From assembly GCA_027532775.1 (NCBI GenBank), contig JAPZTO010000002.1, positions 310,001 through 374,000 of the forward strand: DNA of 64,000 nt. Direction: 5' to 3'. Below, one piece after another: positions 11,680 through 24,362 of this stretch. The DNA is from Beijerinckiaceae bacterium (GTDB lineage: Bacteria > Pseudomonadota > Alphaproteobacteria > Rhizobiales > Beijerinckiaceae). The translations under genes were made by a program, and so were the position numbers. Every line of letters starts with the position of its first letter. Positions within the stretch are counted from its first letter, which is position 1. A model generated the notes under the pieces. The model searched no databases, had not been told where the DNA came from, and saw nothing but the letters and a program-made list of their open reading frames with translations.

Positions 11680-11715
11680 TCACACAGGAAAGGAAAAGCG
11701 GTGTTGCAGCACCAG

Positions 11716-11808
11716 ACCCGTCCCTTCGCCGGCATGACCCGGATCAGGTTCTAAGGGTGCTTGGGTCCATTCCCCCAATCTCAGCCGCCGATGCGACGCC
11801 CCTCGGAT
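11716..11808 (-). promoter_or_regulatory. TPP riboswitch (thiC leader)
   Basis: Read on the minus strand, the leader contains the thi-box landmarks in order: GAGGGGCG, GGCTGAGA, ACCCTTAGAACCTGATC, GGGTCATGCCGGCGAAGGGA. The closing P1 stem is formed by ATCCG at 11808-11804 and CGGGT at 11720-11716. The aptamer lies about 160 bases before the thiC start. The stretch between (11557-11715) holds GC-rich inverted repeats around 11604-11625 (GGCCG...CGGCC) that could be the expression platform, but I cannot tell whether control is by transcription or by translation. Confidence 0.96.
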
Positions 11809-11871
11809 GCGAAAAAGCTTATCGGAATTTGTGGCCGGGGCAAGGGGGAGCCATTCGGGTGCTATGGGTTT

Positions 11872-22141: not shown

Positions 22142-22552
22142 TCCTCCCCGGATTGTCATCCGATTCCGCTTCTCCTCGCTGCAGGGAAGGAAGGCGAAAG
22201 ACTGAGCGGGCGTTCGGGGCTTCCGAACCCGGCTTTCGGCTGGCTCCATGCCCCCTGCTTGATCCCGCGGGGAGGTATCAAGGCTTCAAGAAGCGGAAAT
22301 CGCTGGGGAAATCGCCCTGTCATGCTCCGCGTCGGCCGTCCGGTGCGAGATCGGACCACGCGCAATTGTTAAAGTTTTATCAAACAGCCATGCAATATGC
22401 GCATATCTGATGGCCGCTGAGGCGCCAGCTCTGCCTAGACTTTGCCTTTTTTGCACTGCACATAAGCACCCATGCCCAAGACGACGGCAGCGTCCCCCAC
22501 GGTGATGCAGCGGCAGTCGGCGGGTCACGAAATTCAAATCTGGAGAAGACCC
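22142..22552. other. 411-bp intergenic stretch upstream of the DUF1127 gene
   Basis: No gene is seen on either strand. The right half is AT-rich for this genome (about 22364-22410) and contains the perfect 12-bp palindrome ATATGCGCATAT at 22395-22406, about 150 bp before the DUF1127 start. TTGTTA at 22366-22371 could be a -35 element, but no convincing -10 is placed at the right distance. Confidence 0.5.
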
Positions 22553-22708
22553 ATGATCCTGACCCACATTATCGCCCGCATCCAGTCTTGGCTGCGTTTC
22601 CGCCGGAATGTCGAGATCCTCTCGCAGCTTTCCGATCGCGAGCTCGCCGATATCGGCCTGAACCGCGGCAGCATCGAACAGGCGGCCCGCCAGGCTGTCG
22701 GCGCCTGA
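22553..22708 (+). CDS. DUF1127 small protein
   Basis: A 51-residue protein of the DUF1127 (YjiS-like) family: a basic N-terminal helix ([18 protein letters not shown]) followed by the conserved [14 protein letters not shown] motif. Start at MILTHI follows GGAGA; the frame extends 27 codons upstream without family resemblance. In Rhodobacter, DUF1127 proteins such as CcaF1 take part in RNA turnover under stress and lie upstream of CcsR small RNAs. Here too a series of C-rich hairpins follows directly, so mRNA and small RNA may come from one transcript. The function is inferred from those relatives. Confidence 0.9.
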
Positions 22709-22712
22709 GACA

Positions 22713-22883
22713 ACAGGCAGGCCCGGATGTTCTCCCCGTCCGTGCCTGCCTGTTTTCCCTCTTCACGCGGGTCAGGCGGCAGACCTCTCCCACCTGGCGC
22801 CTGACCTCGCGTGTTCCCTCTACGCGTATCGGCTAACTCCCGGCCCTTACGTGCGAATGGCCCGCTTCGGCGGGCCTTTTTTT
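22713..22883 (+). ncRNA. candidate small RNA with C-rich-loop hairpins (CcsR/cuckoo-like)
   Basis: Three hairpins and a terminator follow the DUF1127 stop by four bases. Hairpin 1 (22713-22753): ACAGGCAGGC with GCCTGCCTGT, a one-by-one mismatch, CGGA with TCCG, loop TGTTCTCCCCG. Hairpin 2 (22764-22813): a 15-pair stem with one bulge, a one-by-one mismatch, CAG with CTG, loop ACCTCTCCCAC. Both loops are 11 bases with TCTCCC at positions 4-9. Hairpin 3 (22823-22853) is weaker, with loop TAACTCCCG. Each stem is followed by a TTCCCTCT-like linker. The position after DUF1127 and the anti-Shine-Dalgarno loops match the family described in Rhodobacter. Not tested by covariance search. Confidence 0.65.
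22859..22883 (+). terminator. strong Rho-independent terminator
   Basis: GGCCCGC, loop TTCG, GCGGGCC, then seven T residues: a perfect seven-pair stem with a stable tetraloop. It closes the DUF1127 and hairpin-array transcript, about 46 bp before the trmFO start. Confidence 0.95.
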
Positions 22884-22928
22884 ATGCGCCCTCTCGCCTC
22901 CAGCCGCCCAAACGATTATCTACCGGGC

Positions 22929-24362
22929 ATGACCCGAAACCTTTCTCCGATCCATGTTGTCGGCGGCGGCCTTGCCGGCAGCGAGGCGGCCTGGCAGATC
23001 GCGCAGGCCGGCGTGCCTGTCGTGCTTCATGAAATGCGGCCAAACCGCATGACCGAGGCGCACAAATCGCAGGGGCTGGCCGAACTGGTCTGTTCCAATT
23101 CCTTCCGGTCCGATGATTCGGATCTCAATGCCGTCGGGCTGATCCATCACGAGATGCGCCGCCTGGGCTCGCTGATCATGCATGCGGCTGACCGGCATCA
23201 GGTTCCGGCCGGCTCAGCGCTGGCGGTGGATCGCGATGCCTTTTCGGCCGATGTCACGGCCCGGCTCGAGGCCCATCCGCTTGTCACGATCGACCGGAAC
23301 GAGGTTGCAGGACTGCCGCCGGAGGAATGGGACAGCGTGATTCTCGCGACGGGGCCGCTGACCTCGCCGGCGCTGGCGGAAGCGATCCGTTCCCTGACAG
23401 GCGAGGATTCGCTGGCCTTTTTCGATGCGATCGCGCCGATTGTCCATCGCGAGTCGATCAACATGGATGTCGCCTGGTTCCAGTCCCGCTATGACAAGGC
23501 GGGTCCCGGCGGCACCGGGGCGGATTACATCAATTGCCCCCTCGACAAGGCGCAGTACGACGCCTTTGTCGCGGCCCTGATCGAAGGGGAGAAGGCTGAA
23601 TTCCGCGAATGGGAGAAGGATACGCCGTATTTTGATGGCTGCCTGCCCATCGAAGTGATGGCCGAACGCGGTGTCGAGACGCTCCGGCACGGGCCGATGA
23701 AGCCGGTCGGGCTGACGAATCCGCATGATCCGACCGTGAAGCCCTATGCCGTCGTCCAGCTCCGGCAGGACAACAAGCTCGGCACGCTCTACAATATGGT
23801 CGGCTTCCAGACGAAACTGAAATATGGGCCGCAATCGACGATCTTCCGGATGATTCCCGGGCTCGAACAGGCCGAATTCGCCCGCCTCGGTGGCATCCAT
23901 CGCAACACCTACCTCAATTCGCCGCGTCATCTCGATTCCGCGCTGCGCCTCAAGGCGCAGCCGCGCCTGCGCTTTGCGGGGCAGGTCACCGGGTGCGAGG
24001 GCTATGTCGAGAGCGCGGCAATCGGGCTCTTGGCCGGCTTGCTGGCCAGCGCGGAGCGGCTCGGCCGTACTCTGGCTGTTCCGCCGCCCGAAACGGCGCT
24101 CGGCGCGCTGCTCAACCACATTACCGGCGGGCATATCGAGACCATCGATACAGGGCCGAAATCATACCAGCCGATGAATATCAATTTCGGCCTCTTCCCG
24201 CCGATCGAGGCGGCGCCGCGTGACGAGAACGGCAAAAGGTTGCGCGGCAAGGACAAGGCGGTCGCCAAGAAGCGCATGATCACCGCGCGGGCCAAGGCTG
24301 CACTGGCCACCTGGATGGCGGACCATGCGCTCGCGCCGGCCCTGTCCGAAGCGGCGGAGTGA
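22929..24362 (+). CDS. trmFO: methylenetetrahydrofolate-tRNA-(uracil-5-)-methyltransferase
   Basis: FAD and folate-dependent enzyme that makes 5-methyluridine-54 in the T-loop of tRNA. The 477-residue protein has the N-terminal dinucleotide-binding motif [14 protein letters not shown], the HEMRPxRMTEAH and [11 protein letters not shown] segments typical of TrmFO (the latter with the catalytic Cys), and the C-terminal [13 protein letters not shown] motif. Start at [10 protein letters not shown] gives the normal N terminus; there is no strong ribosome-binding site in front of it. It converges with the synthase-like gene, 6 bp apart. It is one of three tRNA-modifying enzymes in the window. Confidence 0.97.

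Follow-up and report, generated by a model that had tools for sequence, protein, structure and literature searches.

A conserved array of C-rich-loop hairpins behind a DUF1127 gene in a Beijerinckiaceae bacterium, a probable divergent variant of the ar14/cuckoo kind

The locus described here lies in a 64,000-nucleotide stretch (the window) of a 3.8 Mb Beijerinckiaceae genome (G000) and has the gene order uvrA, DUF1127, three hairpins, terminator, trmFO. The DUF1127 gene (22553-22708, plus strand) encodes a small protein of 51 aa, and its match to PF06568 (E 1.7e-13) upholds the gene call of an earlier note that had been made from the sequence alone. It is followed on the same strand by hairpin unit 1 (22712-22754, loop motif UUCUCCC), unit 2 (22764-22813, CUCUCCC within the loop ACCUCUCCCAC) and unit 3 (22823-22853, AACUCCC). 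An intrinsic terminator at 22859-22883 closes the array, and the perfect UUCG hairpin with seven T residues read there previously is borne out (GGCCCGC-UUCG-GCGGGCC, then T7). The trmFO gene (22929-24362, plus strand; PF01134, 1e-98) is a conserved downstream neighbour and serves as the synteny anchor. The nearest relatives of its product are those of a MAG titled 'Proteobacteria bacterium isolate BEIJ4' (85%), a Methylobacterium MAG (84%) and Microvirga (77%), from which the bacterium is assigned to the Hyphomicrobiales. DUF1127 genes with CcsR-like sRNAs have already been described as the CIN1 locus (PMC10253847), and the short DUF1127 gene directly upstream of hairpins on the same strand, a trait of that locus, is present in the window. 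The window also contains a TPP riboswitch on the minus strand (11704-11813; RF00059, 73.1 bits).

Folding of the region 22700-22890 together with its terminator yields -106.1 kcal/mol (z -8.95), a value that none of 200 shuffles equals. Both strands of the 64 kb hold 71 CTCCC sites, of which 50 fall within the loop of a predicted hairpin and 43 within a loop no longer than 14 nt. Among these 43 hairpins unit 2 is the most stable (-35.3 kcal/mol) and unit 1 the second (-31.7), the next reaching -23.9, and unit 3 ranks 21st (-13.4 kcal/mol). The segment 22709-22853 contains three hairpins of 8 bp or more with CTCCC in the loop, and 1000 dinucleotide shuffles of it gave none in 919 cases, one in 81 and never more. 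The hairpins of the array thus exceed chance expectation, which is counted in favour of an anti-Shine-Dalgarno (aSD) sRNA reading. The common design that the earlier note had seen in the first two units, an outer stem, a one-by-one mismatch and a short inner helix, is found in both, and the linkers it had called repeated are real (81% identity over 16 nt). Unit 2 has exactly the 11-nt loop described there, with UCUCCC at positions 4-9, but in unit 1 the minimum-energy fold adds pairs so that the loop shrinks to the 7 nt UUCUCCC.

Seventeen genomes of the genus were searched for DUF1127, giving 34 matches in 16 of them and none in G011 (78% complete). Thirty matches were inspected, 15 short and 15 long, the remaining four being without a fetched locus. 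The short 51-aa form occurs in 15 of the 17 genomes; in G005 (83% complete) one long form was inspected and the other match lies outside the fetched loci. All 15 short loci carry CTCCC in a local hairpin 19-23 nt 5' of the terminator, against a shuffle expectation of 5.8 of 15 for CTCCC of any kind. In G003, G007 and G008, where the terminator was not recognised, the first 60 nt were taken as the region, in G001 the hairpin is visible in the local fold, and the terminator-proximal stem of G010 is weak (-4.3 kcal/mol). Since this hairpin is found at all 15 loci, unit 3 is the shared unit. The description of unit 3 as the weaker of the three therefore stands, but it is a genus-wide unit rather than a weak extra copy. 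The loops of the genus range from TTCTCCTCCCT (G014, full motif) through TTCTCCC and CTCTCCC to CCTCCCT and AACTCCC, and the full CTCCTCCC is found behind DUF1127 in a single genus member (L114/L033). Units 1 and 2 are confined to five close genomes (G000, G002, G012, G013 and G015), the last four being 92-96% identical to G000 over the region, and in G012 the motif of unit 1 is lost. The comparison of relatives proposed earlier thus shows a C-rich-loop hairpin conserved in 15 of 15, but neither the first two units nor the UCUCCC form is universal. The restriction of units 1 and 2 to five close genomes suggests that they are an addition rather than a remnant.

Other hairpins accompany DUF1127 genes of the genus. 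The sole other DUF1127 match of G000 (L032, C15:347366-347455, plus strand) encodes 113 aa beside a divergent LysR gene, and 3' of it lie hairpins with the loops TCCCCC and GTTTCTCCCCTCCACA. Behind the long DUF1127 genes of G004, G005, G007 and G008 there is an early hairpin with TCTCCC in its loop, followed by a T-rich stretch that is perhaps a terminator. At L126 (G008:C13) a terminator 3' of DUF1127 is present in at least four tandem copies with a spacing of about 47 nt.

The stems of the terminator-proximal unit vary between relatives and still pair. When loop borders were optimised alike for eleven stem versions, own arms paired at 6.73 of 8 and mixed arms at 6.03 of 8, and only 2 of 2000 permutations reached the observed sum. 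An earlier arm comparison had given 5.0 of 6 against 2.9 of 6, values biased towards own arms because the borders had been optimised for these only. In the sequences compared, the covariation is hence weaker with equal optimisation and still significant within the genus. Inside the five close genomes, where the array varies too little, it is non-significant, 77 of 500 shuffles matching the observed score.

The position of the array was compared with 80 named trmFO loci. A DUF1127 ORF lies upstream of trmFO in 68 of these, its stop codon 100-1935 nt from trmFO, and is absent from the other 12. At least two copies of CTCCTCCC follow the DUF1127 gene in 32 of the 68, a count that, like the motif and GGAG counts over named loci given below, ignores phylogeny and over-represents Mesorhizobium. 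Genera with such canonical arrays include Brucella, Mesorhizobium, Phyllobacterium, Kaistia, Roseibium, Oryzibacter, Nitratireductor and Aurantimonas. No CTCCTCCC array was found at the Methylobacterium, Microvirga, Chelatococcus and Bradyrhizobium DUF1127 loci among the 68, although C-rich hairpin loops nevertheless occur in three array-less loci (L035, L039 and L047). Within 400 nt after the DUF1127 stop, 117 of 121 copies of CTCCTCCC lie inside a hairpin; elsewhere in these loci 27 of 38 do so. The Rfam model ar14 (RF02344) scores above its cut-off in six of seven scanned loci, those six having been picked for their arrays, and the seventh, the genus member L033, falls below it. The window shares with recognised cuckoo/ar14 members their genomic position and the three hairpins with an unpaired loop motif and variable yet pairing stems. 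Because of its synteny with arrays that match ar14, the window array is taken to be their syntenic counterpart.

The ar14 model itself does not see the window array. A permissive Rfam scan of 1.5 kb (E up to 5) showed no match to it, a genus search (E up to 10) that scored 115 of 207 G000 candidates listed none, and no Rfam family attains its gathering score at the array. The covariance check suggested beforehand therefore leaves the array undetected while detecting its syntenic counterparts. The 13 permissive matches in the 1.5 kb, all below gathering scores, were taken as chance; they included eukaryotic microRNA models on the hairpins (both strands), sRNA models round the terminator and others. 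The loops of the window lack the CCUCCUCCC-type aSD motif required of an ar14/cuckoo RNA, and the array is without CUCCUCCC. As ar14 misses the array and the full motif is absent, it is filed as a divergent variant and not as an ar14 member.

A further covariance model was built from 39 canonical units, namely those with one pairing register among 61 aligned units, which were drawn from 65 left after redundancy reduction of 119 hairpin-folding units. Covariation in the canonical units was 1.008 compared with 0.216 in shuffles, a figure inflated by the one-register selection; the hairpin counts of 117/121 and 27/38 serve as the selection-free control. Over 1.5 kb this model gives units 1, 2 and 3 scores of only 11.9, 9.1 and 5.4 bits, and the unit 1 minus strand also scores 9.0 bits. 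In the genus it produced 19 matches at E up to 1 (best E 0.015). Fifteen of them were inspected, many being coding-like by eye, and those retained were the amtB-linked hairpins L214, L216 and L224 and the DUF1127 hairpin L212.

An amtB-linked hairpin is a second anti-SD hairpin of the G000 genome. There (L206, C13:99909-100021, minus strand) a single hairpin with a CTCCTCCC loop lies after an ammonium transporter gene and before a terminator, and the ar14 model gives it 33.7 bits, below the cut-off. The amtB-linked CTCCTCCC hairpin is also present at L200, L202, L205 and L207, the transporter assignment (PF00909) having been checked in G000 only. At L201, L204 and L208 (G008, G004 and G005) a terminator-like hairpin with TTCCTCCCA in its loop comes after a CTCCTCCC or GTCCTCCC hairpin.

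Two conserved motifs precede the DUF1127 gene of the window. The first is a 25 bp palindrome, CAGCCATGC-N7-GCATATCTG (22385-22409, plus strand), which forms a footprint in 15 genus members and is a candidate box for the LysR-type regulator VtlR/LsrB. The VtlR box is GCAT-N3-TG-N3-T (PMC7486931). GCAT-N3-TG half-sites in the promoter, a trait of the VtlR/LsrB regulon, can be recognised in the window, where the palindrome comprises two such putative half-sites and the final N3-T of the published box is missing. The window box also has the 10-mer CAGCCATGCA in common with the Brucella VtlR motif (PMC12595884). A half-site at -230 to -70 is found for 40 of 85 named-locus DUF1127 genes compared with 443 of 17000 random windows, most of them coding. 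Within the genus the exact half-site is present in 8 of 15 loci, seven times at the aligned place, and the rest retain only the TGC...CA core. The second motif is a core-promoter block (22431-22462, plus strand), again a genus footprint, that ends in the PhaR/AniA-like TGCACTGCA (22452-22460). The PhaR/AniA motif is defined as YGCRNYGCR (PMC12542648), and this pattern occurs upstream of all 15 short DUF1127 genes of the genus and at 60 of 83 named loci, compared with 835 of 8300 random, mostly coding windows. In array-bearing loci YGCRNYGCR often overlaps the LysR box, and the two motifs are inseparable there. The pattern of box plus TTTGCC is found at three places in the genome, that of the window included.

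The genome encodes a PhaR-family gene as well as a LysR gene that adjoins trxB (TIGR01292, 414.5 bits, cut-off 343). The latter reached no NCBIfam cut-off among the 25 families listed. As lsrB adjoins trxB in Rhizobiales (PMC11975290), this LysR gene is a candidate for LsrB because of its place. From the promoter motifs it may be inferred that LsrB or PhaR regulates the locus. The available portions of the literature, whose coverage leaves the key cuckoo/CcsR papers outside, contained no link between this promoter and the trmFO-linked DUF1127-ar14 operon.

The loops of the CcsR RNAs carry an anti-Shine-Dalgarno motif. In Rhodobacter sphaeroides the four RNAs CcsR1-4 form one operon with the DUF1127 gene ccaF1 and a terminator (PMC10253847, PMC8625941), a layout that recurs in the gene, hairpin run and terminator of the window with its three units, CcsR having been compared by description only. 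CcsR1-4 are cut from the ccaF1 3'UTR with RNase E and CcaF1 (PMC8625941). The ccaF1-CcsR promoter depends on RpoHI/RpoHII (PMC10253847), whereas the footprint upstream of the window gene brought out a LysR-type box and the palindrome TGCACTGCA. NfeR1/ar14, of the cuckoo family, silences several mRNAs via redundant aSD loops (PMC10746234, PMC7143759) and is activated by LsrB (PMC10746234). Like the window array it has hypervariable stems and an unpaired aSD loop motif (PMC7143759, PMC10746234), an LsrB-type box upstream (PMC10746234) and, in other Hyphomicrobiales, a position after DUF1127 and upstream of trmFO. Unlike it, ar14 has CCUCCUCCC loops, while the window has UCUCCC, in unit 3 only CUCCC, and lies below ar14 detection. 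In several of the canonical arrays among those listed the last motif hairpin looks by eye to be the terminator, whereas the window has a separate UUCG hairpin. VtlR/LsrB activates DUF1127 genes (PMC12595884), and those of Brucella and Agrobacterium resemble the window in the short gene and the related upstream box; the available text of these reports treats them as protein genes and mentions no hairpin array (PMC12595884, PMC7486931). Opinion is divided on whether DUF1127 proteins act by binding RNA or by binding other proteins (PMC12501420).

Judged from its sequence and that of its relatives, the window array is a real, conserved and divergent variant of the ar14/cuckoo kind. The CcsR/cuckoo kinship first suggested in the earlier note finds support in synteny, in the loop motif, in the design of the hairpins and in their conservation across the genus, and is weakened by the blindness of the ar14 model and the absence of CUCCUCCC. 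Its idea of a divergent branch with a shortened motif and three tandem units agrees with the UCUCCC loops and the ar14 result, except that only unit 3 is genus-wide. It is proposed, as the probable explanation, that the locus is a protein-plus-sRNA operon with a 3'UTR-derived anti-Shine-Dalgarno sRNA, a divergent counterpart of ar14/cuckoo. One transcript, probably activated by LsrB/VtlR, would encode the DUF1127 protein and carry the three C-rich aSD-loop hairpins in its 3'UTR, which would probably be released by cleavage in the U-rich linkers, similar to the RNase E processing of ccaF1-CcsR. By analogy with NfeR1/ar14 and CcsR1-4, the freed loops would base-pair with ribosome-binding sites of the GGGAG type in other mRNAs and lower their translation, with a motif shortened from CCUCCUCCC to UCUCCC relative to other Hyphomicrobiales ar14/cuckoo arrays. 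The 15 of 15 CTCCC hairpins, the full CTCCTCCC at L114, the arm pairing, the 32 of 68 arrays and the trxB-adjacent LysR gene are counted for this reading. Counted against it are the absence of CTCCTCCC arrays in Methylobacterium, Microvirga, Chelatococcus and Bradyrhizobium, the non-detection by ar14, the low unit scores, the flat covariation in the close genomes, the loss in G012 and the weak stem of G010.

The high stability of the stems and their place immediately between the stop codon and the terminator would also suit mere 3'UTR stability elements or terminator helpers of the DUF1127 mRNA, in which C-rich loops would be incidental, and several related lineages manage without the motif. 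This explanation is nonetheless unlikely, as the loop motif is retained at 15 of 15 genus loci while the stems vary, and as ar14, the family to which the syntenic arrays match, consists of aSD sRNAs that have been studied by experiment (PMC10746234). A decaying array, the relic of a canonical ar14 locus whose work now falls to the canonical hairpin behind amtB, is quite improbable. Such a relic would account for the shortened motifs, the unit 1 motif gone in G012, the lack of CTCCTCCC arrays in Methylobacterium and relatives and the canonical CTCCTCCC hairpin elsewhere in the genome, but units 1 and 2 are the two most stable CTCCC hairpins of the 64 kb, their restriction to five close genomes suggests addition, and the terminator-proximal motif is kept at all 15 loci.

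Possible targets of an aSD sRNA were examined by computing duplex energies with 32 window genes, whose starts were predicted by a simple rule. The best energies were mostly with G-rich leaders such as GGGAGG, and the ribosome-binding site of the DUF1127 gene itself ranked 14, 21 and 18 of 32 for units 1, 2 and 3, so self-regulation is not favoured. GGAG precedes the start of only 1 of 47 DUF1127 genes with canonical arrays compared with 15 of 36 array-less ones, and of both genes with a single motif (2/2, three matches skipped). Among other long genes it occurs in 21 of 71 at array loci and 17 of 77 at array-less loci. The contrasts give p values of 5e-6 and 8e-5, which make the case look stronger than it is, the sequences being related and the starts assigned by rule. 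Cis feedback, by which the loops would pair UCUCC with the GGAGA of their own DUF1127 Shine-Dalgarno, is very unlikely given these ranks and the rarity of GGAG in array-bearing genes, even though GGAGA precedes the start in all 15 genus genes inspected and in the window GGAGAA is perfectly complementary to the UUCUCC of unit 1.

Within the sRNA reading it may be hypothesised that the motif was shortened and that ribosome-binding sites are possibly avoided. In a more speculative extension, considered doubtful, the ar14/cuckoo operon would have been retuned in this genus, its motif shrinking to UCUCCC, so that the loops would suit GGGAGA-like instead of GGGAGGAGG-like ribosome-binding sites, and its array growing from one to three units in the five close genomes. 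Redox control by LsrB and carbon-storage control by PhaR may meet at its promoter, and order-wide the array-bearing DUF1127 mRNAs would have been selected to lack their own GGAG, avoiding self-silencing.

The locus, placed by trmFO synteny, extends the association of DUF1127 with anti-Shine-Dalgarno RNAs to a lineage where the Rfam model fails, and its upstream motifs yield a concrete regulatory hypothesis. That array-bearing DUF1127 genes seem to avoid GGAG would, on evolutionary grounds, speak for an in vivo action of the loops on ribosome-binding sites. Should DUF1127 genes share their transcripts with aSD arrays, the RNA could be the cause of some effects credited to the small proteins.
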